IMG/VR virus record: IMGVR_UViG_3300030451_006744
Coordinates: 1-35,640 of that record
DNA length: 35,640 bases
From: a virus
Reading direction: 5' to 3' (one strand)
The notes under the pieces were generated by a model. It was not told where the DNA came from. It saw only the letters and a list, made by a program, of their open reading frames with translations, and did not search any database. Shown one piece after another: positions 12,993 to 35,114 of this stretch (positions are counted from its first letter, which is position 1; every line of letters begins with the position of its first letter). The translations under genes and the position numbers were made by a program.

Positions 12993-13186
12993 TATTCAGC
13001 GTCAGCTGCTGCTCGAACAATTGGTGGATTTAAGACCACTAGGCCCTGTTCCGACTGCTTAAGCTTCATTTCCTTAAGTGTTGGGACAATATCTGATTGT
13101 TCCAACAGGCTGCGCTGTAAAGCCATCATAACGGCTCCAATGGCTTGATCTGAAAGGTGCAGGTTGTTTGTTTCGTTGTTGCTCAT
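12992..13186 (-). CDS. Hypothetical 64-aa protein
   Basis: No recognised family. The start is taken at 13186, where ATG overlaps the stop of the upstream HAD gene (ATGA) and follows GGAG. A longer reading from 13210 has no ribosome site of its own. The protein has a helical middle (QAIGAVMMALQRSLLEQSDIV) and a short strand-like end (GLVVLNPPIV). It sits within an unbroken coupled gene series, which supports it being real. Confidence 0.65.
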   Translation of the reverse strand: MSNNETNNLHLSDQAIGAVMMALQRSLLEQSDIVPTLKEMKLKQSEQGLVVLNPPIVRAAADAE

Positions 13187-13494
13187 TTGGCTTCTCCTTT
13201 GTTCTCCCATACTGATGGGTTCATTGCTTTATCGTCTATAAACAAATCATAGACTGGTTTACCTAATCTCAGCTCATGGTGTTTTACTCCCCATGACTTA
13301 AGTTGTTTTTTGGTAACATCATACCAATCAATGCCGGTTCCTGAACCTCTAGCAGTCCAGTACACGACAGTGTGTCCTTCTTCATAATACTTGTTTGCCT
13401 TTTTAATATTTTCTTCAATAGGCTTAGACAAGCTATAATCTCTACTATCAGGGGTTTTTGCGATTGTCTCATCAATATCAATATATACAATCAT
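13183..13494 (-). CDS. Small HAD-family phosphatase
   Basis: A 103-aa protein with the full set of HAD motifs in minimal form. Motif I is YID6-I-D8-ET, motif II is Thr47 in YWTARG, the motif III lysine is K79 in GKP, and the acidic pair D87-D88 lies in LFIDDKA. There is no room for a cap domain, as in KdsC-like or capsule-biosynthesis phosphatases that act on sugar phosphates. It could remove the phosphate in a nonulosonic acid or heptose pathway. It is joined by ATGA overlaps to the PhyH gene upstream and the 64-aa gene downstream, and marks the end of the glycan island. The substrate is unknown. Confidence 0.8.
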   Translation of the reverse strand: MIVYIDIDETIAKTPDSRDYSLSKPIEENIKKANKYYEEGHTVVYWTARGSGTGIDWYDVTKKQLKSWGVKHHELRLGKPVYDLFIDDKAMNPSVWENKGEAK

Positions 13495-14438
13495 ACTCTC
13501 TCCATAAAGTCATATAAATATTTGTCCTCGGGGGCAAGGTCATCAAAAGTATCTTTCAAAACAGGATGAATTGCCTCTGGCGGTGCATCAAATCCTCTGT
13601 CTCCGCACTCGGGATGAATAAGATAATTAAGGGTCAGCATCAGCCTTTCTCCCGATTCTAGCTTAAGGCCTTTGTGAAACCCATTTGTAGTTGCAACAAT
13701 CAGATCTCCGTAATTTGCTGTTAAATTTATAATTCTATCTTTCCCATAAATGCTTTCAATTTTGTCATCCGGCCAACGGTGAATTGACCACCATGGAGGA
13801 TCAGATGGCATCATGCGATTTGAATTTTTTACATAAGTAAAAGGTCCGTTTTCTTTTGTAACGTCGTTAAAATATGTAAAAAACTTAATAAGCCTGATAG
13901 GGCTATTAAAGTCCTTATGAAACATGTTAGTTCCGACATTTTTAGATTTGTCGGCGGTGCTCATCCTGAGATTTGTAGTTCCTAGGCCCGCCGGGGCTCC
14001 TAGGAATGCCGCTGCGATGGCTTGAATCTTTGGGTGTGTTGCCATCTTGTTTGTTATTGGTATATTTTTTAATGGATGAATGATTTTTGTATGAACTCCG
14101 TTTTGAGGATAATTCACCTTTTTAGGATCTGCACTTCTCATCATCTCAATTGTCTGATTTTTTACTTCGTCTAGCAGTTCAGTGTCCCAAAAATTTTCAA
14201 TTTTGTAGTAACCCTGTTCTTCAATTGTCTTGACAATATCCAAAACTTCAGGAGTAATTCTATCCATCTGTGCTGAATGCTCTTCTCTGCGTTGCCTCTG
14301 CAGCTGTATCCAATGATTCAAAAACCTAGTGCCACCTCGATAAAAATAATCAGGATTGTTTGGCTCAATCCATGATTGAGCTGTTTGCAGGCTTTGGTTT
14401 ATCCCATATTTTGTTTGAGACAGATCTTTGGTGTACAT
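13491..14438 (-). CDS. PhyH-like Fe(II)/2-oxoglutarate dioxygenase
   Basis: A 315-aa protein of the phytanoyl-CoA dioxygenase family. The iron-binding triad is visible: H174-x-D176 in MFHKDFN and the distal H255 in GFHKG, followed about ten residues later by an Arg (GERLMLTLNYL) that would bind 2-oxoglutarate. ENGPFTYV between them is also typical of the family. Such enzymes hydroxylate small molecules or lipids, and several occur in marine phages and in surface-polysaccharide clusters. Given its neighbours (sulfotransferase, cupin), hydroxylation of a sugar, acyl chain or amino acid is likely. The first 60 residues are an unassigned helical extension. It overlaps the sulfotransferase stop by one base. 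Confidence 0.8.
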   Translation of the reverse strand: MYTKDLSQTKYGINQSLQTAQSWIEPNNPDYFYRGGTRFLNHWIQLQRQRREEHSAQMDRITPEVLDIVKTIEEQGYYKIENFWDTELLDEVKNQTIEMMRSADPKKVNYPQNGVHTKIIHPLKNIPITNKMATHPKIQAIAAAFLGAPAGLGTTNLRMSTADKSKNVGTNMFHKDFNSPIRLIKFFTYFNDVTKENGPFTYVKNSNRMMPSDPPWWSIHRWPDDKIESIYGKDRIINLTANYGDLIVATTNGFHKGLKLESGERLMLTLNYLIHPECGDRGFDAPPEAIHPVLKDTFDDLAPEDKYLYDFMERV

Positions 14439-15121
14439 TATTTTAAACCCTTTGGTATATTATACCCGAATCTTTCATAATCTTCAGCATAATAATCAAA
14501 AAAATTGTTGCGTAAAGTTGTAGAATCCTTTAAAATGTTAATTAATTTTTTTCTAGTTTCTGGTGTTTGAGGGCCAAACGTTTTTGCTGGGTTTTCGTGT
14601 CTTCGAAATTCTGTCATTGTCCAAGGAATACGTAGACCGTAATGATCGCGTAAGTAATGCATGTGATTACCGACGGCTTCAACACGTCCCACATAAACAG
14701 TCTTATTGTTTATCCATGTTACCTGCTTGTTAAACATTCGATCAAGCTTTTCAGGGTCTGTTTCGAAATCCCATAATTCTTTTGGTTGTCTAATATTTTC
14801 TTTGCTTAGCATCTCGACAACTTCATTCATTGAAATGTTTTGTATAAGCTCGTCTTTTCTGAGGCGCCAAAGGTATACGCTAATAAATCTATCGAGGGGA
14901 TCTCTACAAAAAATAAAATTGTTCCAATCTTTATACTCGTCTAATCCATTGATTTGTGTTGCAGTAGCATGACAGCTAGCCCCTTGCGGATGCTGTAACA
15001 ACACCCTCATCACTGTGGTTCCTGCATTTTTTGGAATGTGCACAAAGAACATCTTATTTCTTTTAAACGGCCCTATTAAAGTTCTTACTCTGTTTAGCTG
15101 CCTAGGATCTGTTGTAGTCAT
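14438..15121 (-). CDS. PAPS-dependent sulfotransferase
   Basis: A 227-aa protein of the Sulfotransfer_2 type. The 5'-phosphosulfate loop is clear near residues 28-36 (HIPKNAGTT), and the 3'-phosphate-binding motif follows at about 72-83 (CRDPLDRFISVY, Arg and Ser both present). These enzymes move sulfate from PAPS to hydroxyl groups of sugars or lipids. The start chosen is ATG at 15121 with GAGGA six bases upstream. A GTG one codon earlier is less likely. It overlaps the cupin gene by 20 bases. No PAPS-making genes are visible, so the host would have to supply PAPS. Confidence 0.85.
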   Translation of the reverse strand: MTTTDPRQLNRVRTLIGPFKRNKMFFVHIPKNAGTTVMRVLLQHPQGASCHATATQINGLDEYKDWNNFIFCRDPLDRFISVYLWRLRKDELIQNISMNEVVEMLSKENIRQPKELWDFETDPEKLDRMFNKQVTWINNKTVYVGRVEAVGNHMHYLRDHYGLRIPWTMTEFRRHENPAKTFGPQTPETRKKLINILKDSTTLRNNFFDYYAEDYERFGYNIPKGLK

Positions 15122-15443
15122 CACTAATCCTCACAATATCATCTTCTCCAAAATATTCACCATGTTGTACTTCAATAAAGATTACAGCCTCTTCTGTGTC
15201 GTTCTCGATCCTATGTTTCATACTAGTAGGAATCGTAATGGTGTCCCCAGCTTTGTATCTTGTGGTTATATCATCAAGAGTGATAAGAGCTTTACCCTGC
15301 ACAATTGTCCACACTTCTGAGCGCTTGTGGTGATATTGGTAACTCAAACGTTGACCGGGGTTTACTGTTATTCTTTTTACTTTGCAGTATTCAGATTCTA
15401 ACAAGTTTTCAAACATTCCCCATGGTCTTTCTTCTGTATACAT
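15102..15443 (-). CDS. Mannose-6-phosphate isomerase, type II cupin
   Basis: A 113-aa single-domain cupin equal to the C-terminal domain of bifunctional ManC/AlgA proteins. Family marks run the whole length: RPWG (6-9), PGQRLSYQYHHKRSEVW (29-45) with Q36, H38 and E43 as metal ligands, GDTITIP, H77, and the closing EVQHGEYFGEDDIVR then DDYNR. It would convert fructose-6-phosphate and mannose-6-phosphate, feeding mannose-derived sugars to the neighbouring transferases. The guanylyltransferase half of ManC is absent, although a separate nucleotidyltransferase lies at 19998. Start and stop overlap the neighbouring genes, with a TAATG junction to the GDPD gene. Confidence 0.88.
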   Translation of the reverse strand: MYTEERPWGMFENLLESEYCKVKRITVNPGQRLSYQYHHKRSEVWTIVQGKALITLDDITTRYKAGDTITIPTSMKHRIENDTEEAVIFIEVQHGEYFGEDDIVRISDDYNRS

Positions 15444-19168: not shown

Positions 19169-20001
19169 TTTTTTGATAGGTCTGCCACATAATTTTTCTT
19201 ATCTAGTTCATATATGTCTTTCTCAAAATAAGGATAGTATATGAAGTTTTTCACAGATGGTTTTCCAATTTTAGCATTATCCTGAAACACTGGTCGTGGG
19301 TGTTGTATTCCCCATTTTTCACGAAATAATAATTTAGATTGTTTTATCCATCTACCCGATTTAGTATGCGCAGCCTCTCGTTCTAGGTTTCTGTCCGGTC
19401 TCCTAGGAAACTTTTTTTCTATGTCTTCTATGGGATTTAGTAACAGATCAATCTTTCTTTCACCTGTTACCGGCATATAAACATAAGAATTTATACTCGA
19501 CTTTTCTCTATTGTAAAGCAATGCTCTTAAGAAGTAATCGAATTCTTGATACATTATATTACAGAACCTTTCATCCCAAAGTCCAATGTTTTTTACGCCT
19601 TCGGCAGTATAGCTACAAAATGCGTCCCCAACCTGACCACTGAAGAAAGTGTACTCCTTGTGTACCTCAATCGTGTGTTTTAGCCAATCCTTACTCCACA
19701 CAACATCATCCTGAGTGTGAATTAGAATATCGCAGTCTGGTTCATTCAGGTCTTTAAAGCCGTTTATAATTGCTTGATTCCAATTTCTAGACAAGTGACC
19801 TGTGCTGAAGTCCGGCCTAAGTGTATTATGTAAAATATTAATTCGCTCTAAATATTCTTCTTTTATGTGAAGATTCGAATGATTGTTGATAACGTTAATT
19901 TCTACTTCGTGGCCACTCAGATCACTATCAAGCAGCATTCTTAAATTGTTATTGATATCTTCAGCGTTATTATATGTTACTATATAAATTTTTATCTTCA
20001 T
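19165..20001 (-). CDS. GT2-like glycosyltransferase (paralog B)
   Basis: A 278-aa transferase, clearly a duplicate of the protein at 16672-17538. The start KIKIYIVTYNNAEDINNNL, NVINNHS and ILIHTQDDVVW (about residue 97) outline the nucleotide-binding half of a GT-A fold. FDYFLRALLYN and the end NFIYYPYFEKDIYEL repeat the paralog's pattern. Differences cluster in the region around residues 165-235, where acceptor choice is often set. It follows the nucleotidyltransferase gene with an ATGA overlap, so it may use that enzyme's product. Confidence 0.78.
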   Translation of the reverse strand: MKIKIYIVTYNNAEDINNNLRMLLDSDLSGHEVEINVINNHSNLHIKEEYLERINILHNTLRPDFSTGHLSRNWNQAIINGFKDLNEPDCDILIHTQDDVVWSKDWLKHTIEVHKEYTFFSGQVGDAFCSYTAEGVKNIGLWDERFCNIMYQEFDYFLRALLYNREKSSINSYVYMPVTGERKIDLLLNPIEDIEKKFPRRPDRNLEREAAHTKSGRWIKQSKLLFREKWGIQHPRPVFQDNAKIGKPSVKNFIYYPYFEKDIYELDKKNYVADLSKK

Positions 20002-20714
20002 CTATGATTCTCTAAAAATCGCTTGAGGTCTTCAGGTGTTCCTAGTCCCCACATCTCACTAACATAAAAAGGAATCAATGACTTGCCATCACCTATCAGT
20101 TCATTATACACTGGTGCGATGTAAAACTCATTATTGACTCTGATATCTTTATCAATCATCTGTTTGGCATACTTTACAAAGTCAGAACCACGCCTATACC
20201 AATAAATTCCACAAGTTGCAATATTTGAAATTGGCTTTTTTTCGGCGACTTCAGTGATAAATCCACGAGAGTTTGTTTTTACAAATGACCACTTTGGGTG
20301 TACATCATTAAATGTAAATACGATAGAATCAACATTAGTTAAACTCTTGATGGTATTAAAGTTTTCTGGTTCATATGAGATAAACTGATCGGAGTTGGCA
20401 ATCAGCAACCCTTCGTCGTTATCAATATATTTTTCAGCCAAAAGCGCAGTGCAGGCAGCACCCTCTGTTAGTCCATCAACTTCAACATAGTTAAATCGAC
20501 CGTTTGTAATTCTGTCTAGCGTATCTAACAAGCCAGTGTATTGTTCAATATGTTTTTTTCTTACTAGAAAAACATACTCGGAATCAAAATCCAAGTTTTC
20601 CACTACTGTCTGTATCATGGGTTTGCCGCGTACATCAATAAGCGGCTTAGGAAAGGTATACCCTTCTTTAGCAAAACGACTTCCTTCGCCTGCCATTGGA
20701 ATTAAAATCTTCAT
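19998..20714 (-). CDS. Sugar-phosphate nucleotidyltransferase
   Basis: A 238-aa nucleotidyltransferase of the glucose-1-phosphate thymidylyltransferase/HddC-like group. The nucleotide-binding loop is PMAGEGSRF (6-14), followed by the PKPLIDVRGKPMI block with Lys23 as sugar-phosphate-contacting residue. ANSDQFISY (about 107-115) supplies the metal-binding Asp. The C-terminus ends in the conserved WGLGTPEDLKRFL. It would make an NDP-sugar from a sugar-1-phosphate for the flanking transferases. The adjacent HAD phosphatase upstream (ATGA overlap) suggests a short dedicated sugar pathway. Which nucleotide and sugar are used cannot be read from the sequence. Confidence 0.85.
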   Translation of the reverse strand: MKILIPMAGEGSRFAKEGYTFPKPLIDVRGKPMIQTVVENLDFDSEYVFLVRKKHIEQYTGLLDTLDRITNGRFNYVEVDGLTEGAACTALLAEKYIDNDEGLLIANSDQFISYEPENFNTIKSLTNVDSIVFTFNDVHPKWSFVKTNSRGFITEVAEKKPISNIATCGIYWYRRGSDFVKYAKQMIDKDIRVNNEFYIAPVYNELIGDGKSLIPFYVSEMWGLGTPEDLKRFLENHR

Positions 20715-21328
20715 TCAAAATACTCCCTTAATGTGTCAATCGTTACCTCATCGGGATCCTTTACTTCTAATACATTGCATCCAGATGCATATGCAGCCTG
20801 CTTACCCTTTGGAGAATCTTCTATAATTAGCACTTGATGCTTTTTTAAATTGAATTTTTCAACTAAAAAGTTATACCCTTCCGGGTGTGGTTTTGAGTTT
20901 TCAACGTCTTGATTTGTTAGTAAATAATCCATCTGCTCTAGCACACCAGTCTTGTCAAGCATCAGTGTAGCTGTCTCTCTTATACTGTTTGTATAACACG
21001 CGACATAACACCCTTGCTCACGCAGATACTTAATTAAATCAATCTTTTCTTGCCTTCTTGGTGCAGATAAATTAATTGTTTCAACTGTTAGTTGTTGTTT
21101 TCGATCATAAATTTCTTCATGCTGATCAGGTTTTACTATGCCCATTTCCGTTAATTTTGACAGCTTTACTTTTGTTGGAATTCCATTAAAAGTAGTGTAA
21201 TGGTCTTCCATTGAAATTGTGTAATCGCATACTTCTGCTAGTGCTTTATTTAGTGCAACTCGATGCCATTCGCACGCATCAACAATTACCCCATCTAAAT
21301 CAAAAATTACTAATCTTATACTGTTCAT
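20711..21328 (-). CDS. HAD-superfamily phosphatase/phosphoglucomutase-like
   Basis: A 205-aa HAD hydrolase with a helical cap, of the beta-phosphoglucomutase/phosphoglycolate phosphatase type. Motif I is D10-L-D12 in VIFDLDGVIVD. Motif II is CYTNSI. Motif III lysine and aspartates are in ENSKPHPEGY and VLIIEDSPKGKQAAYASG. The start was placed at 21328, two bases after the upstream gene's stop and following AGG. A longer reading from 21385 would run deep into that gene. It may remove or move a phosphate on the sugar used by the nucleotidyltransferase that follows. Confidence 0.82.
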   Translation of the reverse strand: MNSIRLVIFDLDGVIVDACEWHRVALNKALAEVCDYTISMEDHYTTFNGIPTKVKLSKLTEMGIVKPDQHEEIYDRKQQLTVETINLSAPRRQEKIDLIKYLREQGCYVACYTNSIRETATLMLDKTGVLEQMDYLLTNQDVENSKPHPEGYNFLVEKFNLKKHQVLIIEDSPKGKQAAYASGCNVLEVKDPDEVTIDTLREYFE

Positions 21329-21329
21329 C

Positions 21330-22139
21330 TTATTGCCTAGTTGCCCAAAATTTTTGCAATGTGTTATCAAAATCATGCTCTTCATGAGTCTTGCATCTGT
21401 GCTGTTCAGTATCGATATTTAGATCAGGCACACCATATCTGCTATCTTTAACATATATTTTTCTACCGTCTGATTTAAGCTCTGGTCGCATAATTGAATA
21501 TTTAAGCATGTTTTCTTTATACCCAAGCTGCTGGAATGTGTAGGCCCACAAAATTTCCATACATATTGAATGATACTTGATTTTAGGCCTTATATTATAA
21601 AATGTAGTATTACTAATTTCATCTAGTACCTCTTTCGATATCATAAACATTGGCCCTAAAATAGAAAGAAATTTTTTATTTTTTGGAAATTCTAATTCAT
21701 TTTCTCTAAACTTCTTTCGGGGCCATTCGTTTGATCTTGATTTATCATCATAACGGTCTTTTTTTGGCCAACTCCATTTTTCGTATGTTGTTATTGGGGC
21801 TACTTTGTAATCTTCCTGTAGAATTTCATCAATCCTAGCTCGTTGCTTAATGATTGTGGAATCATGTAGTAAAAAGTAATTTTCATATTGATCCTTTGTT
21901 GACTCGTATACATACCACAAGGCACCAGTAGGAAAGTTTTTGTTTTTCACATCTAAAGGAATAATGTCATATTTCTTTTTTAAAACATTAAGATAGCTAG
22001 TGTCAGATGAGCCGCTGTCAACCACATAGATATCAACTTTTGAAAACTGTTTTCTAACAGATTTGACGCAGTTAAATATGTGAAACCCACTTTGTTTCGT
22101 ATATAAACAAGGTATTATATAACATAACTTTTTTTTCAT
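21330..22139 (-). CDS. Putative GT-A glycosyltransferase
   Basis: A 269-aa protein. The opening CYIIPCLYTK, the strand-loop DIYVVDSGSSDTSY (residues about 35-49) typical of family-2 transferases, and YFLLHDSTII (about 88-97) at the DxD position suggest a GT-A fold. ILGPMFMISKEVLDEI later in the protein also recalls these enzymes. The C-terminal 70 residues are unassigned. It lies three bases after the methyltransferase gene. Donor and acceptor are not identified. Confidence 0.65.
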   Translation of the reverse strand: MKKKLCYIIPCLYTKQSGFHIFNCVKSVRKQFSKVDIYVVDSGSSDTSYLNVLKKKYDIIPLDVKNKNFPTGALWYVYESTKDQYENYFLLHDSTIIKQRARIDEILQEDYKVAPITTYEKWSWPKKDRYDDKSRSNEWPRKKFRENELEFPKNKKFLSILGPMFMISKEVLDEISNTTFYNIRPKIKYHSICMEILWAYTFQQLGYKENMLKYSIMRPELKSDGRKIYVKDSRYGVPDLNIDTEQHRCKTHEEHDFDNTLQKFWATRQ

Positions 22140-22142
22140 CGC

Positions 22143-22931
22143 TCAACCTATATTGCCCACCCTTCCATCAAGCTGGATATCTCCCTGTTTTCCTTTTCTG
22201 ATCCACTTGATATCTTTTGGAAAAAATTTCTTAATATTAATCATACCCTTTCCACTCATATACAAGATTCCATCATGAACTGTTGCATCGGAAAACTCAA
22301 TTACCCTAGGTAGTGCATCTAATACTTTTGGACTCCAATTGATGTCTTTCTTTTTTACTAGCACAGACACGTCATATGGTTTAATTGACTCACGACCTTT
22401 GCTGTCAATGTAAGCCGACGGTTTATGATCCCTCACAATAGCCTCTGAGCAGTCGAAGCCCACTGTGACAAGGTTGTATAATAACAGCCCACCGTTCCAG
22501 ATGCATAAGTGGCCCGGGACAATCATATGCTTAGCTGGAGGTACAGTCAAAGCTAGGATACCATCATCTCTGATAATTCTTTTCAGTTCCTTTAAAAACA
22601 CGCCAACATTTATTTGATGCTCCAAAGTATGGCTGCACCATACACAATCGAAATGGCCATCTGGAATCTGAGAACTAATTTCTAAAAAATTTCCTAGATA
22701 ATCAGGGTTCCTGTGTTCTGACATATCGCATGCAAATGTATCTTTGCCAAAGTGCTTAAAGGTCCTAATGTGATGACCGCCTCCAGAACCAACATCTAAC
22801 ACTGTCTGAAAGTCATTATAATATTTTGTTAATAAAACCTCCATTATTCCTCTACCGCGGGGCTTGGGCGGTAGGTCAATGGTGTCCATAAATTTTCTAA
22901 CTTCTTCTTTACTAGGAGGCAAATTTGTCAC
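22143..22931 (-). CDS. SAM-dependent methyltransferase, class I
   Basis: A 262-aa protein with the class I (type 11-like) core at about residues 40-150. Motif I is VLDVGSGGGHH, the acidic end of strand 2 is FACDMSEH, CVWCSHTLEHQ forms strand 4, and ELKRIIRDDGILALTVPP follows. The C-terminal 80 residues are a separate strand-rich part. It likely adds a methyl group to a sugar or glycan end. In O-antigen clusters such enzymes can cap chains. It overlaps NeuA as ATGA, which links it to nonulosonic acid synthesis. Confidence 0.82.
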   Translation of the reverse strand: MTNLPPSKEEVRKFMDTIDLPPKPRGRGIMEVLLTKYYNDFQTVLDVGSGGGHHIRTFKHFGKDTFACDMSEHRNPDYLGNFLEISSQIPDGHFDCVWCSHTLEHQINVGVFLKELKRIIRDDGILALTVPPAKHMIVPGHLCIWNGGLLLYNLVTVGFDCSEAIVRDHKPSAYIDSKGRESIKPYDVSVLVKKKDINWSPKVLDALPRVIEFSDATVHDGILYMSGKGMINIKKFFPKDIKWIRKGKQGDIQLDGRVGNIG

Positions 22932-23605
22932 TTTGTCTCCATCAAGCTTTCAGCCATTGTAAATTGCCACTCATAATCAATATCAAAAACTTCCTGTTCT
23001 TCCATATGAAACAACTTAATATCACCGGGAGTATTAAAATCTCCCATCCATATCCCTTCTCCAATTTTGTCTAGGCGGCCGGCATAAAGGCAATGTGCCG
23101 CTTCATACACCGGTGCGACTGTCTTGGTATTCATTACTGCTTCCGTTAATGGAGTTATCAGATCCTTGTTAAAATTCCAAAAGTAATTCTTTTTTCTAAT
23201 TACGCCAAACATTCCATCTGATTCTGTGTAAGAGTATGCTCTGACAAACGCGTCGATTGTTTTTGAAGTTAGGAACGGAGCACAAGCATTTACTAGCACA
23301 CAATATTTATGAGGTAATTTATCCCACCATTCGTACATATCTGTCATAGGTGTGCCTTCTGACTTGGCTGATTTTTCTGTTCGACGATAAATATTAACAT
23401 TATGTTTCTCGCCAATTTTAAGCAGTTCAGGTTCATGCACGGACAAATAAAAGTTTTCTTGTGGAAAACTTGTACATTTTTTAATCTTTTCTAGCGCGAG
23501 GTCTGTTAAAGTAGTTCCCGCAATAGATCTGATCATCTTTTGCGGGACTCTTTGTGAGCCTAATCTTGCTTGGATTACGACGGCTATATCTTCTACATTT
23601 TTCAT
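22928..23605 (-). CDS. neuA: CMP-nonulosonate (sialic acid-type) cytidylyltransferase
   Basis: A 225-aa protein of the NeuA/KdsB/SpsF-like cytidylyltransferase group. The N-terminal nucleotide loop VVIQARLGSQRVPQKMI (about 9-25), then LVNACAPFLT with the expected small-residue turn, and MFGVIRKKNYFWN fit the family. The C-terminal DIDYEWQF is the usual metal-site and closing motif. It would join CTP to a nonulosonic acid and give the CMP-sugar donor. NeuB lies two genes upstream, so the sialic/legionaminic/pseudaminic type is more likely than KDO. SpsF-like alternatives cannot be excluded. ATGA overlaps exist at both ends. Confidence 0.8.
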   Translation of the reverse strand: MKNVEDIAVVIQARLGSQRVPQKMIRSIAGTTLTDLALEKIKKCTSFPQENFYLSVHEPELLKIGEKHNVNIYRRTEKSAKSEGTPMTDMYEWWDKLPHKYCVLVNACAPFLTSKTIDAFVRAYSYTESDGMFGVIRKKNYFWNFNKDLITPLTEAVMNTKTVAPVYEAAHCLYAGRLDKIGEGIWMGDFNTPGDIKLFHMEEQEVFDIDYEWQFTMAESLMETK

Positions 23606-24891
23606 CTGATTATCTGTCTTAAAAATTCATATTGTAATGTGGGCTGTCCTGCTGAAAGGTCATGTAATTTAAAACTCCGAGACAATTTTAAATCATTTAA
23701 CAAATAGTCGAAAAGCATCACATATTGTCTCTCTTGCGTGCCCGGATCAGAGTTTTTAATCCAATTTGGAAGGTCTTTTCCTAACTCAAATGAATGATTA
23801 TTGGAAACATCTTCAGTATTGTAGCCGTCAAAACCACAAAAATAAATATTTCTAATCCCCAGAATAATTGCAGTAATCATCAAGCGAGGTCCAATACCGA
23901 GCTTGCTTCTATATCTAGTATGAAAGTAGCTTGAATAATTCGCTGCTTCTTTGACATAAGACAATCGTTCAGTTCCCCAGTCTGTAATCTCCTGCAGTAC
24001 GATAGTATCTCTATCGTTTACATACTCCCATAGTGGATCATTGTAAAACACATCAACCTCATCTAAAAAAGAGGCAACCTGAATGTTGTTAAATTGATCA
24101 AACAAAGGATTCTTATAATAATTATTCATTGTCCATACAGGTATATCTTGAAACTGTGAAAAATCAATATTATTAGTCGATGGCCCTCCACCGATAATCA
24201 AAACACTATCTTGATTAGCCAACCCAGTAACCGCAGGACATAGACCAATTCTTAAATCAGGAAATACTAAGTCTCCATAACAACGGCCTTCATTAATATC
24301 GTCAGAAGTAACACCATCAGCACTAGGTACCTGACCTTTCGCATTATAGGCAACTACCATATTTTCTATCATTCTGCCCATTTCTGATGCAATTGAGTTC
24401 CAAGTTTGATTTGCAAAACTTTGTCGAGGTGAACAAAAGCTATGTTCAATAGGATCTAGGCCCGAGCAATATGTTTGAGCGTTGCTAAATATTTTTTGAT
24501 GCAACTGGTCAAACCAGATATTTTCATGAACCGCTGATGGGTGCCTTCTTATGTACTGTCTTACCATCGTCTGTAAGTGACCATGGCCGGCTTCGCCAGA
24601 GGAAAAAAGATTTGTTAAAACTTGCCGTGTGTGCTTGTGCCAGATCTTTCCATATAGACGATTTCCATTACCCCACGCTTGAGCTTCTTGTAAAGCATTG
24701 TTAATGTCAATGTTTCTGTATTTTAAATCATGATCATCCTCTATACCATTGGCCATTGAAACACCCAACTTATCTACAGGGATGTCCCTCGCCGAGTGAT
24801 TCCATTTTTTTTGCCCGACGGCTTCGCGGAGATGGCCCTTCGGTGATGGTGATTTTTCTTTTACTGATCTATCTTTTACGGTCCAATCCAT
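23602..24891 (-). CDS. GT42/DUF115-like protein, possible nonulosonate transferase
   Basis: A 429-aa protein. Residues about 225-400 look like the Rossmann-type fold shared by GT42 sialyltransferases and DUF115 (Maf-type) proteins: SVLIIGGGPSTNNIDFSQF (GGGPS at about 233), WTMNNYYKN, and GIGPRLMITAIILGIRNIYF followed by CGFDGYN, in the same order as in Campylobacter Cst proteins. A His-Ser (NNHSFE) follows the GFDGYN, as does a conserved end (SFKLHDLS). The first 225 residues are an unrecognised helical domain. With NeuA directly downstream and NeuB directly upstream, transfer of the CMP-sugar is the natural role. The start lies one base after the NeuB stop. Confidence 0.6.
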   Translation of the reverse strand: MDWTVKDRSVKEKSPSPKGHLREAVGQKKWNHSARDIPVDKLGVSMANGIEDDHDLKYRNIDINNALQEAQAWGNGNRLYGKIWHKHTRQVLTNLFSSGEAGHGHLQTMVRQYIRRHPSAVHENIWFDQLHQKIFSNAQTYCSGLDPIEHSFCSPRQSFANQTWNSIASEMGRMIENMVVAYNAKGQVPSADGVTSDDINEGRCYGDLVFPDLRIGLCPAVTGLANQDSVLIIGGGPSTNNIDFSQFQDIPVWTMNNYYKNPLFDQFNNIQVASFLDEVDVFYNDPLWEYVNDRDTIVLQEITDWGTERLSYVKEAANYSSYFHTRYRSKLGIGPRLMITAIILGIRNIYFCGFDGYNTEDVSNNHSFELGKDLPNWIKNSDPGTQERQYVMLFDYLLNDLKLSRSFKLHDLSAGQPTLQYEFLRQIIR

Positions 24892-24892
24892 T

Positions 24893-25723
24893 TTAACCTC
24901 TCAACTTCTTTCTAACTTTAATTTCACCTTCTGTGACCCGCTTTACACCATCGCCGAAGGCAGTCTCAAGCTCTCTAACACCTTTTACAAGCTTAATGAG
25001 ACCTTGTGGCTCTACAGATGCTAAGTGGTCAGACCCCCACATGGTACGGTCTAATGTGATGTGACGCTCAAGGATCGTAGCACCTAAATACACACTAGCG
25101 ACTGTTGTTCCAAGACGAAACTCATGGCCACTGTAGCCAACTTCACACTCATATCGATCTTGTAAAGTCTTAATGCACTGTAAGTTTAAGTCTTCGATAG
25201 GGGCTGGGTAAGTTGAGTTGCAGTGCAATAGTGCAAACTCTGCTCCTTCTTCGCGCATCCATTCAACTGCTTGATCAGTCTCTTCAAGTGTAGACATTCC
25301 TGCTGAAAAAATTACTTTCTTTCCTGTGCGTGCGCAGCCTCTCATTAACTCTTCATTTGTAATCATTGCAGATGGCATCTTAATAAAAGGTAAATCATAT
25401 TGGCTCAAGAACTCTAGACTATCCATATCCCATGGTGATGCGGACCAAGCAATACCTTTATCACGACAATATTGATCGATTTCGTCGTATTCTTCTTTTC
25501 CAAATTCAACACGATACTTGTATTCAAGATAGGTCATGGTGCCCCATGGGGTTTCACGCATAACTTGTTTTTGGTGTTCTGGAACGCAAACATCTGGATT
25601 TCGTTTTTGAAATTTAACAGCATCACATCCTGCTACCGCTGCAATATCAATTAGTTTTTTGGCCACAGCTAGTGAGCCATTATGGTTAATCCCGATTTCT
25701 GCGATAATATATGTTTTTTTCAT
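24893..25723 (-). CDS. neuB: N-acetylneuraminate/legionaminate-type synthase, lacking SAF domain
   Basis: A 276-aa NeuB-family synthase that condenses phosphoenolpyruvate with an N-acetyl amino sugar to give a nine-carbon acid. The TIM-barrel motifs are complete: IAEIGINHNGS (7-17), AVKFQKR, SASPWDMDSLEFL, IKMPSA, FSAGMST, LHCNSTYPAP, VGYSGHE and LERHITLDRTMWGSDHLAS. Usual NeuB proteins have about 340-350 aa and end in an antifreeze-like SAF domain that reaches into the partner's active site. Here the protein ends at EIKVRKKLRG, just where the linker to SAF begins. Sialic, legionaminic and pseudaminic synthases cannot be told apart by eye. The ATG overlaps the upstream gene as ATGA. Confidence 0.9.
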   Translation of the reverse strand: MKKTYIIAEIGINHNGSLAVAKKLIDIAAVAGCDAVKFQKRNPDVCVPEHQKQVMRETPWGTMTYLEYKYRVEFGKEEYDEIDQYCRDKGIAWSASPWDMDSLEFLSQYDLPFIKMPSAMITNEELMRGCARTGKKVIFSAGMSTLEETDQAVEWMREEGAEFALLHCNSTYPAPIEDLNLQCIKTLQDRYECEVGYSGHEFRLGTTVASVYLGATILERHITLDRTMWGSDHLASVEPQGLIKLVKGVRELETAFGDGVKRVTEGEIKVRKKLRG

Positions 25724-26490
25724 TTTATATCCTTTAACTCTATTCTTGGAATTTCTTCACTAAGTGCACTAACCTTACTTACTAGGTGCAAATTAACATT
25801 TTTATCTCTCAACCAATTATACAACGGTCCTGAGCCTTTTTGTACCATTTCATATTCAAAATTTCGATTACTTGTTAAATGGGTCTTGGATTTATAAAAA
25901 TGCTCACCTACCTTGTCGCCACTATCCCACCCAATTGCATATATATTTTTTATACCTACATGAACTGCCATATAAATAACGGTTTCTAGGGTGATACTTG
26001 GACCACAAGGCCTATCAACTCTTTTATCAAAAAGACCTTCATCAAAATTATTATTTTCACAGAGGCGCCCAAGGTTACTTTTTGGATATACTAGTGGATC
26101 CAAAACTCTACAAAATATATCCCACTGTTGTTGGGGAGCAAACCTTGTTTTTGCATAGGATTCTGTGTAGCCACTGGAGGCTATTACTATGGGCCCAGAC
26201 TTGACCCCGTAACGATACCCCGCGTATCCATTTATCATTGGTAAGTTACAGTCGTTTATGAAGTGAAAATCAGTCTCTTTCTCATACTCCAAATATGCCT
26301 GTTTAACTGAAAACGTCAAAGAGTTTGACATTTTTTTCTTCAATTCTTGCTTGTCGACGTGACCTAACGACGGACCAGATGCGAGTATAAACAAACGTTC
26401 ATTTGCGTATGTATCTTTTAAAAAGGCGATTCTTTCATCATACGTCTTTAATCGCCTCAACTCTCGTTTTAATTGTCTAGTCTTCTTCAT
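25720..26490 (-). CDS. GT42/DUF115-like protein, shorter form
   Basis: A 256-aa protein that shares the fold marks of the protein at 23602. LFILASGPSLGHVD (about 33-46) is the glycine-rich nucleotide loop, FHFINDCN follows, and CGPSITLETVIYMAVHVGIKNIYAIGWDSGD is the characteristic helix-strand-Asp segment. A His (GEHFYKSKTH) comes soon after. It lacks the long N-terminal domain of the other protein. It may be a second sialyl-type or flagellin-type transferase. The start is placed at ATG 26490, overlapping the GT4 gene by 14 bases. A GTG two codons earlier is possible. It is directly coupled to NeuB. Confidence 0.6.
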   Translation of the reverse strand: MKKTRQLKRELRRLKTYDERIAFLKDTYANERLFILASGPSLGHVDKQELKKKMSNSLTFSVKQAYLEYEKETDFHFINDCNLPMINGYAGYRYGVKSGPIVIASSGYTESYAKTRFAPQQQWDIFCRVLDPLVYPKSNLGRLCENNNFDEGLFDKRVDRPCGPSITLETVIYMAVHVGIKNIYAIGWDSGDKVGEHFYKSKTHLTSNRNFEYEMVQKGSGPLYNWLRDKNVNLHLVSKVSALSEEIPRIELKDIK

Positions 26491-27736
26491 CTTCACTTAA
26501 TACAAATTCAACTAGCTCTTTACCAATTTTTAAACTATCACCAGTTACTTCAAGCATATATTCTTTTGCATTTGGGCCTCGTTGGGCATATGCTTCAGGC
26601 TCGTGTTTCCATTCATTATAGGCGGATCGCAATTGCTTTCTTGCTGAAATATAGTCTGTCTCAAACCAGTTACTGTCACACGAATATACAAATGGAAAGA
26701 TTTTGCAGTGGGCAGGCGTTAGATAACTGTTTACAATATAGTTGTTTTTAGGATCTACAAAGCCTACATGTCCGCCCTTATCATGTACAATTACAGGAGT
26801 TTCGTGGACTAGAGATTCAGCAATTGGCAAACCAAATCCTTCTGCGCGGCTAAAAAGCGCAAACAGATCGCTCTCCCTGTATAGATAATTCATTTGACTT
26901 TTTGGAAACAAGCCATAAAGAAGATGAATTTTGCAGCTAGGAGTTTTGGATAGACTGTCGTTCAAGATTGATCTTTTTAAAAGAGTAATTTCATTAGCCA
27001 TCATTTGTTGTTGCTGCTGTTGATACTCAGGTCTAGAATCTTGAATATTTCCATACGTTTTAACAACTAAAGAGCAATCTTCGTTATCTTTAAATTCCAT
27101 TAGATATGCTTTGACGACATTCATCAGGGCTTTTCTGTCGGTCCACTGCCCTACTGTTAAGACGTTAAAGTGGTCAGGGGACAAAAGCTCTTGAGGTAGT
27201 GGTTCAATTTCCGCAGAGCCGACAAAATCGTCATTAATTAAATGAGGCACCATTTTTACAGGCATCGAATTGTCAAATTTCTCTAAACTAGCTTCAAAAG
27301 AATCTTTGTTCCACTGGCACGGGACCACGATTCTGTCTACTTCAAATGCTTTAAGGATATCATTCCATACCGGTGGCATTGCATCTGTCTCCCACACCGT
27401 AACACAGGTTGTGGTCGCTGATTTCGATGCAAAAAACTTAGTTGCGTCTATTTTCCAAGCATAAACAGGAGGATGATGGAATATGTAATGAAAGTCCTCG
27501 GCCTCAGTCCAAGCATCTATCTCTTCGTTGCTGTCAAAAGAAAGCATATTGAGAAATTCAGCTTCTTCTTGTGTTAAAGCACTCTGCTCATCCGCATTAA
27601 TAGAAAGTACTTTTAAATCAATATCTAATTTTTTTTCTTGAATGTAGTCATACATAGAACGCAAATAGCCGCGACCAGCAACGGCGTATCCGCTAGGATC
27701 ACCTAGCTGGCCTTGATATAATATCTTTTTTGTCAT
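26477..27736 (-). CDS. GT4-family glycosyltransferase (1)
   Basis: A 419-aa GT-B enzyme. The C-terminal half has the retaining GT4 signature AEGFGLPIAESLVHETPVIV (about residues 305-325) with the E-x7-E pair, preceded by NVLTVGQWTDRKAL, where the donor-binding Arg-Lys lies. A Gln run (six Q near residue 240) interrupts a helix. The closest relative in the window is the next upstream gene, which shares the QWxDRK block and EFxDNEDxxLxxKT. It overlaps that gene as ATGA. A role in building a host-like surface glycan is inferred from context. Confidence 0.85.
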   Translation of the reverse strand: MTKKILYQGQLGDPSGYAVAGRGYLRSMYDYIQEKKLDIDLKVLSINADEQSALTQEEAEFLNMLSFDSNEEIDAWTEAEDFHYIFHHPPVYAWKIDATKFFASKSATTTCVTVWETDAMPPVWNDILKAFEVDRIVVPCQWNKDSFEASLEKFDNSMPVKMVPHLINDDFVGSAEIEPLPQELLSPDHFNVLTVGQWTDRKALMNVVKAYLMEFKDNEDCSLVVKTYGNIQDSRPEYQQQQQQMMANEITLLKRSILNDSLSKTPSCKIHLLYGLFPKSQMNYLYRESDLFALFSRAEGFGLPIAESLVHETPVIVHDKGGHVGFVDPKNNYIVNSYLTPAHCKIFPFVYSCDSNWFETDYISARKQLRSAYNEWKHEPEAYAQRGPNAKEYMLEVTGDSLKIGKELVEFVLSEDEED

Positions 27737-29052
27737 AAAGTAATAACCGAAGTAGATTGTGGAGAAGACGCCTCAAGTGTCTCTAGGACTGACTCTACAA
27801 ATTTATTTTGTTGAATCTCTTCTGAAAATTCTTTTTCGACGTGAGCTTTTAATTTTTTAGCATCGCTTAGAGCCAAATCATATGACTTGTAAATTTTTCT
27901 CATGGCGCGCATAAAACTTTTTTCATGTGGGAAACACCAGCTAGACTCAGGAATCAGCACTCCATCCCATACTGCTTCTTTTTGAATTGGTTTGACACTA
28001 AAGTCTACCTTTTGTCCCAGAAAACGCATGCGGCCATGCGATTTACGAGCTTTCTTGCCGGCGCCTCTCTTAGTTGTGACATACGCATTCATATAATCCT
28101 TTATACCCCCCCAGTTGGGTGCAACAATTGGTAGTCCAGCTTGGGCAGCTTCAAAAATAGGAAGCCCGAAGCCCTCACCATGGGCAAGATTGATAAAGGC
28201 ATTAACGTTAGGGTGCCTGTAGAGTCCAGCCATCTCTTCATCGGACATATTTCCATGAAGTAAATACAATTTGCATTTTCTAGGCTTTCCATTCCAAGGT
28301 GCTTTATCATAGTTTTTAAGATATTGCTTTAACCTAGCCTCAGTATAAATCCTATCCACGTAAGAGTTCTTAGCTAGACTAGTTTTAATAATCAGACCAA
28401 CATCTTCATTATCATTAAATTCTCGCATAAAACCTTGAAGGGTTTCGGGCAAATTCTTACGGTCAGACCACTGAGCAACCACTAAGAAATTAAATTTTGT
28501 TTCAGGCTTGAAGTCTAGCTCGACTGGTTCTAACTGTTTGGTTGGGAATCCTACAACATCAATTGGCGTAGTACACCTAGCTGAGATTGTATTTCCGGCC
28601 GAATCTCTGCCTTCGTACTCAGTATTTTCAAATGCTGCTTTAGTGTGCTCAGATACTGCAATAATCCTGTCTACATTTTGACATGACTCAACCCATTTGT
28701 GTGAAATAAGGGTTGTTTCTGTGCCTGCTGTATATCCAATATTTTTTGGTGTAATTCTTTGCCATTCTTGTGGAATGGTTACTTGAATAGACGCATCAAA
28801 TGCTAAGACACCTTGCTGCTGACACTGTTGAGCATGGGTTGTAGTGTTTCTGATTACACTGTCCATCTCTCTGCGCTCATCATTGTCGTCGCTAATCCAT
28901 CCAGTCTGCCCCCAATTGGTTGGAGCCAAATATACATCAAATAGATCAGGCCTAGATTTTAGTGCTCTATATGCGAATCTAGCTTGCTCGCCATATCCTG
29001 ATCTGGTGAGTAGTGGGCCTCTAATTAAAACTTTCTTTTTTTGCGTACTCAT
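27733..29052 (-). CDS. GT4-family glycosyltransferase (2)
   Basis: A 439-aa GT-B enzyme. The start KKVLIRGPLLTRSGYGEQARF is the family's acceptor-side glycine loop. FLVVAQWSDRKNLPETL marks the start of the donor-binding half, and GEGFGLPIFEAAQAGLPIVA carries the E-x7-E catalytic pair. A short Lys/Arg-rich insertion (KRGAGKKARKSHGRMRF, about residue 335) is unusual and may contact an anionic acceptor. One base group separates it from the third transferase, whose stop lies at 29053. Confidence 0.85.
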   Translation of the reverse strand: MSTQKKKVLIRGPLLTRSGYGEQARFAYRALKSRPDLFDVYLAPTNWGQTGWISDDNDERREMDSVIRNTTTHAQQCQQQGVLAFDASIQVTIPQEWQRITPKNIGYTAGTETTLISHKWVESCQNVDRIIAVSEHTKAAFENTEYEGRDSAGNTISARCTTPIDVVGFPTKQLEPVELDFKPETKFNFLVVAQWSDRKNLPETLQGFMREFNDNEDVGLIIKTSLAKNSYVDRIYTEARLKQYLKNYDKAPWNGKPRKCKLYLLHGNMSDEEMAGLYRHPNVNAFINLAHGEGFGLPIFEAAQAGLPIVAPNWGGIKDYMNAYVTTKRGAGKKARKSHGRMRFLGQKVDFSVKPIQKEAVWDGVLIPESSWCFPHEKSFMRAMRKIYKSYDLALSDAKKLKAHVEKEFSEEIQQNKFVESVLETLEASSPQSTSVITL

Positions 29053-30330
29053 TTATGCTACCTCCGCAAAATACCAATTTTTGTAATTCTTTCTCTCGTT
29101 CCATGATCCATAATTTTCCACTACATTGTCCATTAATTCAACCCAGCTTTTACAAAAAGATTCAAAGCCATAATTTACCAAAACATGATTTCGACCTGCA
29201 AGGCCCATTTGCAATCTTTCTTCCGCGGTTTTATTAAACATTTCTTCTAGTGCTCCGACGACTAGTTCTTGTGAAAGACGATCTTCGTAGATATAAGGTA
29301 CCTGTTGTGAACCAATGATTGATTTTGAAGTCGGTTCCAAGCCAATTCCAAACCAGCTTTCGCCATCAGTTACTTGCTCTTGCAAACCGCCAGTCATTGT
29401 CACGATAATTGGCGTGCCACAAGATAATGATTCTAGTGTTGCTAGTCCAAACCCTTCGGCATCAGAGATGTTCACAGTTACATCTGCCATGTTATACATC
29501 AACGCCAGAGATTCCGCAGGAAGCTTGTTTGTAGAAAGATAAATTTCTCCATTAGTTAAATTTAAGTTTTCTAGAATAGCAATTAAATCTTGTCCATTCG
29601 GATCTCTTGGCTCAGTGTGCATAATCAATCTTGCCTTATCTCTACCAACCCTATCTAGAAAATCGTTAAACCAATAAATCAAAGAACCGCTCTGTTTGCG
29701 ACGAGCGTTCCTGTTGTTCCAAAAGAAAGTTACCTTATCCTCTAGCTTATCTCCATCATTTAAAAGTGCCTTTGAAAATTCCTTAACATCGTTTGAATCA
29801 AGTGGCTTAAAAATTTGAGATTGTACCGCGTGTGGTAAATAATGAGATTCTACATCTGGTGCTACCGTTTGAACAATGTCATGTGTTAACTTTGAGATAC
29901 AAGCAATTACATCTGTAGAGTTATACCATTTTGCATTAAAGTCTGGGTAAGGGTAGTTGTCCCAGACGTGATAGTAAACCATTGGACATACCGATCTAAT
30001 TTCATCTTCCATTTCCCACAGCCATGGCCAAAATCTAGGATCTGTCATAAACCATAAAATATCAGGACGCTCTGTTCTTAACACAGAACGAATCATTTCT
30101 TGATTTCCATATCCATCTACTGGGTGGATTATCCAATCTTCTCCGTATGGCTCAACCATCTTGGGAGTATAATCAGAGTGCTTAATAGCTCCGCCAAAAG
30201 ATATGATCCTATATTTGCCTGTTTGCAGCAATGCTTCCATTACATATTTTGTCTGCGTGCCAACTCCAGAGGGACTTAGTGGATGGTCCGACAGTGTTAC
30301 AATAGTTTTTTTATCAGTTTTTAATTTCAA
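29053..30330 (-). CDS. GT4-family glycosyltransferase (3), TTG start
   Basis: A 425-aa GT-B enzyme. It begins TIVTLSDHPLSPSGVGTQTKY, with the SGVGTQ loop near residue 20. VTFFWNNRNARRKQSG opens the donor half, and DAEGFGLATLESLSCGTPII holds the E-x7-E pair. It is more distant from transferases 1 and 2 than they are from each other. The start codon is TTG at 30330, backed by GGAG six bases upstream. It is the first gene of the glycan island, and follows the Cas4-like nuclease gene after a 14-base gap without an evident terminator. Confidence 0.85.
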   Translation of the reverse strand: MKLKTDKKTIVTLSDHPLSPSGVGTQTKYVMEALLQTGKYRIISFGGAIKHSDYTPKMVEPYGEDWIIHPVDGYGNQEMIRSVLRTERPDILWFMTDPRFWPWLWEMEDEIRSVCPMVYYHVWDNYPYPDFNAKWYNSTDVIACISKLTHDIVQTVAPDVESHYLPHAVQSQIFKPLDSNDVKEFSKALLNDGDKLEDKVTFFWNNRNARRKQSGSLIYWFNDFLDRVGRDKARLIMHTEPRDPNGQDLIAILENLNLTNGEIYLSTNKLPAESLALMYNMADVTVNISDAEGFGLATLESLSCGTPIIVTMTGGLQEQVTDGESWFGIGLEPTSKSIIGSQQVPYIYEDRLSQELVVGALEEMFNKTAEERLQMGLAGRNHVLVNYGFESFCKSWVELMDNVVENYGSWNERKNYKNWYFAEVA

Positions 30331-34507: not shown

Positions 34508-34515
34508 AATTTATA
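34508..34515 (-). promoter_or_regulatory. Possible late promoter, TATAAATT
   Basis: TATAAATT on the minus strand differs from the T4 late consensus in the last base. It overlaps the stop codon of the lipoprotein gene and would give PhoH a leader of about 75 bases that contains the inverted repeat. Chance is possible in such AT-rich DNA. Confidence 0.3.
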
Positions 34516-35101
34516 AATTTGCTTCAATTTCTTCAAGGATATAAGCTTCATTATATCCGTGTAGTCCATAAACAACATTTCCAGCACGATCAATAAGAAC
34601 AAATGTTGGCCAACTAGAAACAGGAAAGCCATGCGTTACAGTTGGACTGTACAACATGGCTCTATCACCGCGCAAGACTGGCGCTGTTTCAATTGAATGC
34701 ATTAAATTCCATGAATCAACATCTTCTTTTTCAACAGTGCTATTTTGCGAGTCAGCAATCAATACTGTTACGTATTGAAAACCGCGATCTTCATATAGTT
34801 CTTGCACATGCTGTACTGTCTGTGCCGCCATATTACAAGGTCCGCACCACATTGCTGAAAAGTCTAGTAAAATCAAATCTCCTTCTTCAGAAGATAATCT
34901 CCACAATTCTTCATTTTGATCTGGTAGTTGAAAATCACAGGCTTTTTCTCCTAGCATCCATCCACAATCGCTAGTTTGAATAAAACCCACTGTTGTGTTA
35001 ACTTCTTCAATTTTTTCATTTTCAATCTCTTCTAAAGTTTCTAATTCTGCAGGTCCGCATGCTGCGAGCCAAATAAGTAATACACTAAATAATGTTTTCA
35101 T
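34511..35101 (-). CDS. Thioredoxin-like (TlpA/ResA-type) lipoprotein
   Basis: A 196-aa protein. The first 15 residues are a lipoprotein signal, TLFSVLLIWLAAC, with LAAC as lipobox, so the mature protein would be fixed to the membrane by Cys14. After an acidic linker, a thioredoxin domain covers about 60-196: LILLDFSAMWCGPCNMAAQTV holds the WCGPC redox site, and SWPTFVLIDRAGNVVYGLHGY the cis-Pro strand. It would handle disulfides or reduce cytochrome c in the periplasm. The start is ATG 35101 with AGAGG seven bases upstream. A GTG at 35107 is in frame. A phage copy with an export signal is uncommon and suggests changing host envelope redox state. Confidence 0.85.
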   Translation of the reverse strand: MKTLFSVLLIWLAACGPAELETLEEIENEKIEEVNTTVGFIQTSDCGWMLGEKACDFQLPDQNEELWRLSSEEGDLILLDFSAMWCGPCNMAAQTVQHVQELYEDRGFQYVTVLIADSQNSTVEKEDVDSWNLMHSIETAPVLRGDRAMLYSPTVTHGFPVSSWPTFVLIDRAGNVVYGLHGYNEAYILEEIEANL

Positions 35102-35114
35102 TTTCACACCTCTT

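Follow-up and report, generated by a model that had tools for sequence, protein, structure and literature searches.

Which nonulosonic acid would a virus make with its own NeuB-type synthase, and from which precursor? The question is raised by four adjoining genes in the window analysed here, a stretch of 35,640 nucleotides (positions 1-35,640 of the virus record IMGVR_UViG_3300030451_006744, which has 40,145 bases). They encode D1 (258 amino acids, 25720-26496), a protein of DUF115/MptE/Maf fold; NeuB (276 amino acids, 24893-25723), a synthase without SAF domain; D2 (429 amino acids, 23602-24891), a GT42-like candidate transferase; and NeuA (225 amino acids, 22928-23605), a NeuA/KdsB-type synthetase of cytidine monophosphate (CMP) sugars. 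All four lie on the minus strand and are coupled as a first-pass annotation of this DNA had described: D1 and NeuB by an ATGA overlap, read directly, NeuB and D2 by a one-base gap (TAA-A-ATG) and D2 and NeuA by a second ATGA overlap. The D1 frame opens with GTG at 26496; position 26490, where that annotation began, is an in-frame ATG.

The same annotation proposed that the phage makes and attaches a nonulosonate from a six-carbon precursor supplied by the host. That the phage makes and attaches such a sugar is still the best reading, since phages keep a synthase, an enzyme for CMP activation and a transferase of GT42 type as a set. We part from it over the precursor: an N-acyl hexose from the host is not supported, because NeuB falls among SAF-less, phosphatase-linked synthases on the Kdn-9-phosphate side of the tree and the same gene island encodes a mannose-6-phosphate isomerase. 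We favour, at a probability of roughly 0.6, a short phage-encoded pathway from mannose-6-phosphate to a nonulosonate without N-acyl group, 2-keto-3-deoxynononic acid (Kdn), with CMP-Kdn as the likely product. In this pathway the isomerase (15102-15443) would convert fructose-6-phosphate to mannose-6-phosphate; NeuB would form Kdn-9-phosphate from mannose-6-phosphate and phosphoenolpyruvate, and K40-R41 would bind the phosphate in this step; Kdn would then be released by KdsC of the host or by a HAD of the phage; NeuA would activate it to CMP-Kdn; and D2 would attach Kdn to an acceptor that the GT4 enzymes of the island build or prime.

The SAF-less synthase and its phosphatase-linked relatives

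The window NeuB is a member of the NeuB family (PF03102, 2.2e-78, 263.5 bits; gathering cut-off 22.1). It retains the whole barrel and ends where the SAF domain would start, so that the "intact motifs" of the first-pass annotation hold for the barrel and not for the missing SAF domain. E9, K37, Q39, K40-R41, H200, H221 and D232 are present, with roles that we take to be those of the corresponding residues of NmNeuB. Against the equivalog models for NeuB (TIGR03569; 275.1 bits, cut-off 399.65) and PseI (TIGR03586; 199.6 bits, cut-off 340.25) the protein fell short. The phage enzyme thus shares the PF03102 barrel and the catalytic residues with classical NeuB and PseI, but it lacks SAF, differs from them at K40-R41, Y65, G199 and E201, and falls into a separate tree group. 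In a quick maximum-likelihood tree with SH-aLRT support, computed after removal of three phage rows on long branches (two from L034 and one from L062), the SAF-less NeuBs formed a clade of 103 rows (support 99). Together with Kdn-type synthases they made up a group of 128 rows (support 86), separate from NmNeuB and PseI. The tree therefore keeps the window NeuB within the synthase family, as the annotation had expected, although it joins neither the NeuB nor the PseI group.

A Lys-Arg pair directly after the substrate-site Gln was found in 121/121 Kdn-side sequences and in 0/27 classical ones, the latter being defined by architecture and tree place and including 21 second NeuBs of phages. This comparison used 148 of 167 rows; it dropped 10 cupin-fused rows, L021, L064, one SAF cellular row of L112, L131, and the extra SAF-less rows L178, L179, L204, L205 and L206. 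Both the grouping with phosphatase-linked synthases and the Lys-Arg signature apply to the window NeuB, which we accordingly predict to be a Kdn-9-phosphate synthase. The GYSGHE and KFQK motifs presumably resemble animal sialate-9-phosphate synthase, a likeness that was not used as a test.

The link to a phosphatase comes from cellular genomes, in which a scan gave at least 580 relatives; the best 80 of these loci were analysed (NeuB 52-69% identical to that of the window). A KdsC-like HAD was present in 70 of the 80, fused to NeuB in 19, within 150 nucleotides in 45 and farther away in 6. Since the HAD model was built from the proteins of 35 of these loci, the other 35 matches are independent. 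NeuA, HAD and NeuB are sometimes a single polypeptide in actinomycetes. The fused HAD of one locus (L096) matched KdsC at 1.1e-30; against NF058599, the model for Kdn-9-phosphatase, it reached 7.4e-25 and missed the cut-off. A NeuA-HAD fusion adjoining a SAF-less NeuB (L218/L227) passed NF058599 (192.7 versus 180 bits). The NeuA-HAD/NeuB sets and fusions of actinomycetes, Chlorobi, Chloroflexi and other groups in the best 80 belong to the same SAF-less clade (52-61% identity; 69% for L082, from Neomarinimicrobiota) and have the KFQKR and GYSGHE motifs in common with phage NeuB. The phages differ from these sets in having no HAD of that kind and in placing D2 beside NeuB.

Among 295 Bacteroidia genomes, 14 passed the NF058599 cut-off; the NeuBs of six of these (L227, L231-L235) and of three below the cut-off (L228-L230) were taken to the tree, and all nine fell on the side of the phage enzyme, within the 128-row group. 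Five of the six passing NeuBs (L231-L235) have a SAF-length tail, whereas L227 and L228-L230 are SAF-less and lie beside NeuA-HAD fusions. A rule that a SAF-less enzyme means a product without N-acyl group was dropped because of the SAF-length tails of L231-L235.

Promicromonospora offers a connection to a known product. In 13/13 genomes there was just one match to the NeuB family; its identity to the phage NeuB was about 55%, and in all 13 it was SAF-less, carried KFQKR and GYSGHE and adjoined a NeuA-HAD protein. PMC6801904 describes a Kdn teichulosonic acid in the wall of P. citrea. If Promicromonospora makes Kdn with this one NeuB, the SAF-less type is a Kdn synthase, and the phosphatase linked to it would point to Kdn-9-phosphate as the product.

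The Kdn-9-phosphate pathway of Bacteroides thetaiotaomicron and Prymnesium parvum likewise consists of a NeuB-family synthase and a CMP transferase. The Prymnesium synthetase uses mannose-6-phosphate, and the route given in the part of PMC6200933 available to us (mannose-6-phosphate to Kdn-9-phosphate to CMP-Kdn) parallels that proposed for the phage; the same part reports no clear phosphatase homologue and invokes redundancy. Synthases beside a phosphatase that passes NF058599 share the Lys-Arg signature and the tree side with phage NeuB; our alignment covered these synthases and not the enzymes characterised in B. thetaiotaomicron and Prymnesium. The phage version differs in being SAF-less, whereas L231-L235 keep the SAF-length tail, in having no dedicated phosphatase and in the addition of a GT42-like gene. 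The NeuB of Serratia marcescens KL1/KL2 is also described, in a portion of PMC9000132, as a Kdn-making member of the family, as we predict for phage NeuB. It is not of the SAF-less type: its fusion to COG1082 resembles the second NeuB of one phage locus (L021; NeuB, SAF and AP_endonuc_2), and in phages that architecture is that of a second NeuB.

Activation, transfer and conservation in phages

NeuA matched the CMP-nonulosonate synthetase profile CTP_transf_3 (8.4e-11, 42.5 bits; cut-off 22.6), and its PDB matches were PpNeuA and CMP-Neu5Ac synthetase. Of 74 viral NeuA sequences, no fewer than 73 have each of the residues R14, S17, R19, K23, D208 and D210. Against two models that would fix the sugar, PseF (31.0 bits, cut-off 205.7) and its best NCBIfam match, a Kdo cytidylyltransferase subfamily (36.6 bits, cut-off 193), NeuA scored far below the respective thresholds.

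A scan of viral contigs confirmed 220 NeuB relatives, of which the best 80 loci were analysed, 41 of them by whole-contig searches. One of these loci (L001), from the 161-kb contig G001, has a NeuB 100% identical to that of the window. NeuA was found in 69 of the 80 loci, a D2-type protein in 74 and both in 66; for the 54 loci with full flanks the numbers were 53, 52 and 51. D2 follows NeuB immediately in 42/80 loci, NeuA in 8/80. NeuB, NeuA and D2 are thus a conserved trio in phages, and its recurrence across the 80 loci argues against chance. The synthase is nearly fixed: 78/80 viral relatives have 270-300 amino acids, 28 representatives are 69-88% identical to the window NeuB, and mean pairwise identity is 74% (n = 52). 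The D2-type proteins (n = 53, some being second copies within a locus) are only 17-41% identical to the window D2. Among 50,697 phage records, tblastn gave three matches to the window NeuB and none to NeuA, D1 or D2. At slightly less than even odds, we suggest that phages with the trio carry their own fast-varying GT42-derived transferase family beside a nearly fixed synthase, plus almost all the steps that lead from fructose-6-phosphate to CMP-Kdn, independently of any host nonulosonate pathway; they would thus place one invariant sugar on many acceptors.

Genes of this family have been noted in viruses before: K01654 (neuB) is counted for viromes in a table of PMC3877843, and PMC6469090 mentions a NeuB_NnaB-like open reading frame of the lysis module in phage DLP4 and in a few other phages. 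Our literature search surfaced no paper on a phage Kdn pathway, which is not proof of absence. Some phage loci hold further NeuB genes. Second copies are fused to a cupin or a xylose-isomerase-like barrel (L003:11346-12818, L021:11781-13679, L062:10228-12069), and second SAF-less copies (49-51% identical) in L012, L016, L056 and L057 group with a copy on an Azospirillum plasmid (L204). A cluster at L010:12268-15915 with RmlD, a SAF-bearing NeuB, a GNAT acetyltransferase, a PIG-L deacetylase and a formyltransferase is perhaps a second, N-acyl-modified nonulosonate set.

Which protein would attach the sugar? When the D2 family profile was run against PDB, it retrieved nine GT42 sialyltransferase sequences (Cst-I 5.8e-9, Cst-II 1.5e-8); the next matches, at 0.02 or above, were unrelated reductases and similar proteins. 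The AlphaFold2 model shows a GT42 fold at about 219-429, the N-terminal part being poorly modelled (poor at 1-61 and 191-216). Foldseek placed Cst-II first (2.0e-4) with modest TM-scores, and VIA aligned D2 with Cst-I (Z 11.8, 3.4 Å, 192 residues), Cst-II (Z 11.3), an archaeal HPPK (Z 12.2) and Maf (Z 9.9). Because HPPK reaches the GT42 level, GT42 cannot be told apart by fold alone; it is the D2 sequence profile that singles it out. Pfam CST-I (PF06002) was missed (16.6 bits, gathering 25). G236, G332, G353 and D355 do not vary across 54 family sequences, and 46 of these have N256. D2 resembles Cst-I and Cst-II in the conserved GGPS, N256 and D355-G356 as well as in the profile and VIA matches; it differs in its low identity (15-19% in the VIA rows), an extra N-terminal region and Gln389 at the position that aligns, in a weakly aligned loop, with the catalytic His of Cst-II, which we take to be His188. 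We regard D2 as the one probable transferase of the module, a candidate that would use CMP-Kdn as donor.

The acceptor could lie on the phage itself. A sugar placed on virion proteins or DNA and not on the host envelope would be compatible with the Kdn reading, from which it differs in target only. The position of the island between the baseplate and late-sigma genes and PhoH would suit such a target, and Maf-type enzymes act on flagellin, a protein; we nevertheless consider it doubtful.

A second transferase, and with it the two acceptors suggested by the first-pass annotation, seems unlikely. Structure prediction did give GT42/DUF115-type folds for both D1 and D2, as that annotation had anticipated, and its description of the two as GT42/DUF115-like is borne out for D2 by profile and fold; for D1 it holds by fold and is weak by sequence (PF01973, 23.4 bits; cut-off 34.6). 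D1 overlaps NeuB in the window, and VIA ranked Maf (5mu5) first for its AlphaFold2 model (pLDDT 88.8; Z 12.6, 4.1 Å, 197 residues), which would agree with a Maf-like nonulosonate transferase. HPPK and Cst-I follow closely, at Z 11.0 and Z 10.8, however; Foldseek put HPPK first (4.6e-5) and Maf 5mu5 second (5.8e-5), and such a fold does not fix the substrate. D1 was found in only 53/80 viral loci, compared with 74/80 for D2, and in 23 loci it is fused to a GT4 glycosyltransferase. As modelled, D1 is a Maf/HPPK-like fold protein tied to GT4 genes.

Precursor, phosphatase and competing products

The isomerase (minus strand, 113 amino acids, cupin type) matched PF01050 above cut-off (1.2e-30) and the C-terminal part of TIGR01479 at 2.5e-32, below the full-length cut-off. 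Given a NeuB on the Kdn-9-phosphate side and this isomerase in the island, common sugar phosphates may suffice as starting material.

For the dephosphorylation step, two minus-strand genes of the window come into question. A small HAD of EcbF/BcbF type (13183-13494, 103 amino acids; TIGR01689 8.4e-8, below cut-off) is possibly a non-specific phosphatase, and a HAD hydrolase of beta-phosphoglucomutase type (20711-21385, 224 amino acids; PF13419 5.1e-27) is possibly another candidate. Relatives of the small HAD occur in 37/41 NeuB contigs and in 376 phage records. At most three of these 376 records hold a NeuB match, and the small HAD was dropped as a dedicated Kdn-9-phosphatase.

Several observations weigh against Kdn or against the completeness of the pathway. 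Mannose-6-phosphate isomerase is over the cut-off in only 14/41 related contigs, so that mannose-6-phosphate often must come from the host. A KdsC-like phosphatase is present in 0/41 phage contigs, the open reading frames of the phage loci gave no KdsC-like HAD match at E 1, and no Kdn-9-phosphatase was thus seen beside NeuB in these phages; the small HAD belongs to the general gene stock of T4-type phages. Ten of the best 80 cellular loci, five of them from Lachnospiraceae, have no HAD. The two groups on the Kdn side are joined with a support of only 86, under quick settings and with long branches; the SAF-less rows L227-L230 are placed outside the main SAF-less clade; and the SAF-bearing Kdn-type synthases L231-L235 make SAF loss unnecessary for Kdn. 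P. citrea itself is possibly not among the 13 Promicromonospora genomes. In D2, the alignment of Gln389 with the catalytic His of Cst-II falls in a weakly aligned loop, where 54 family sequences have Q in 30 cases and H in 9. Precursor genes of N-acylated sugars also occur near some relatives: PseB-like genes in 29/80 phage loci, and in the best 80 cellular loci a PseC-like aminotransferase in 5 and a LegC-like one in 2 (1e-30), with LegB-like in 7 and LegC in 5 at 1e-10. LegB, LegC and NeuC diverge from the SAF-less NeuB of the Azospirillum locus L204, and L097 has NeuC.

These last genes, together with the scores of NeuB against TIGR03569 (275 bits) and PseI (200 bits) and the weak match of NeuA to PseF, are what would speak for an N-acylated product, a Neu5Ac-, legionaminate- or pseudaminate-type sugar made from a six-carbon precursor of the host. 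We consider such a product improbable. Both NeuB scores miss the equivalog cut-offs, and the PseB-like genes track a second NeuB of SAF length (315-380 amino acids): they occur in 23/25 phage loci with such a second gene versus 6/55 without (Fisher 1.7e-12, uncorrected for relatedness), and 49/80 loci have neither. Of the 41 whole contigs, 13 had a strong match to the PseB model, 0 of them over the equivalog cut-off. The 161-kb contig G001, with a NeuB identical to that of the window, gave no TIGR03589 (PseB) match, and its locus L001 is likewise without PseB. The short NeuB thus does not appear to depend on a PseB-like gene. NeuC, LegC and PseG were in no phage locus (n = 80) at 1e-10; beside the best 80 cellular relatives, at 1e-30, NeuC was found once and PseB, PseG and LegB not at all, with single-protein queries that divergent genes may escape. 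The Lys-Arg signature and the HAD linkage also argue against an N-acylated product.

Another 2-keto-3-deoxy sugar phosphate, Kdo-like or of other chain length and serving a Kdo-like role, is very unlikely: the Kdo cytidylyltransferase subfamily is the best NCBIfam match of NeuA, and at the closest cellular locus among the matches listed, from Neomarinimicrobiota, the gene order ends in a Kdo transferase in a draft genome with no KdsA match (see below), but an ordinary KdsA is over the cut-off in 21/26 genomes with a SAF-less NeuB, the SAF-less gene also occurs in Lachnospiraceae and actinomycetes, which to our knowledge have no Kdo lipid A, and the wall of P. citrea contains Kdn. NeuB as a general substitute for KdsA was dropped because of the same 21/26 genomes.

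The locus in question, L082:7986-11210 from Neomarinimicrobiota, holds the closest cellular NeuB among the matches listed (69%). Its order is NeuB-NeuA-KdsC-like HAD-Kdo transferase (PF04413 2.4e-25), and the draft genome without KdsA match is G042. In 100 genomes of this phylum there were three matches of at least 53%, in frames of about 290 amino acids, the weaker ones being mostly in frames of about 350. In G042, Kdn may take the place of Kdo on lipid A.

If the Kdn pathway is correct, ocean viruses of a widespread group produce a sialic-acid-type sugar of their own out of central metabolites and could re-coat a surface without sialic-acid precursors of the host. Such a sugar could serve to modify the surface charge, exclude rival phages or affect recognition by grazers. 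It would also suggest a biochemical type, Kdn-9-phosphate synthase, for the large SAF-less NeuB clade, including its members in actinomycetes, Chlorobi and Lachnospiraceae. The pathway predicts that the substrate is mannose-6-phosphate, that Lys-Arg clamps the phosphate and that infected cells contain Kdn.

The glycan island and the phage

The recognisable genes of the window are all on the minus strand. Because baseplate-wedge, late-sigma-factor and PhoH profiles match window proteins, we take the virus to be a T4-type phage; it belongs to a group of ocean phages. Among the matches listed for the window PhoH, phage relatives did not exceed 40% identity. The psbA/D family was unmatched in 16/16 related contigs searched for it; a cyanobacterial host is thus not indicated, and a link to photosynthesis was dropped.

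The glycan island sits between the late sigma gene and PhoH. Besides D1, NeuB, D2 and NeuA it holds three GT4 glycosyltransferase genes (26477-30330), a methyltransferase, a nucleotidyltransferase, weak GT2-type genes, the mannose-6-phosphate isomerase, a sulfotransferase and a PhyH oxygenase. The GT4 genes, all on the minus strand, are GTa (26477-27736; PF00534 2.2e-9), which is the fusion partner of D1 elsewhere, GTb (27733-29052; 1.8e-7) and GTc (29053-30330; 1.1e-12). Downstream, a minus-strand S-adenosylmethionine methyltransferase (22143-22931; PF08241 8.8e-12) overlaps NeuA by GTGA and could possibly O-methylate the sugar. The PhyH-type oxygenase and the sulfotransferase (PF03567 1.2e-13) lie at 13491-15124, and sugar tailoring is possible for them. 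The nucleotidyltransferase (19998-20714) matched phrog_3980 (1.8e-68), a family without assigned function.

Outside the island, a 2523-amino-acid open reading frame (1273-8844) adjoins the baseplate genes and gave no PHROG match at 0.001. At 34511-35107 the window encodes a thioredoxin/redoxin-like protein (PF08534 1.2e-9) with a start that, judged by eye, resembles a lipobox.

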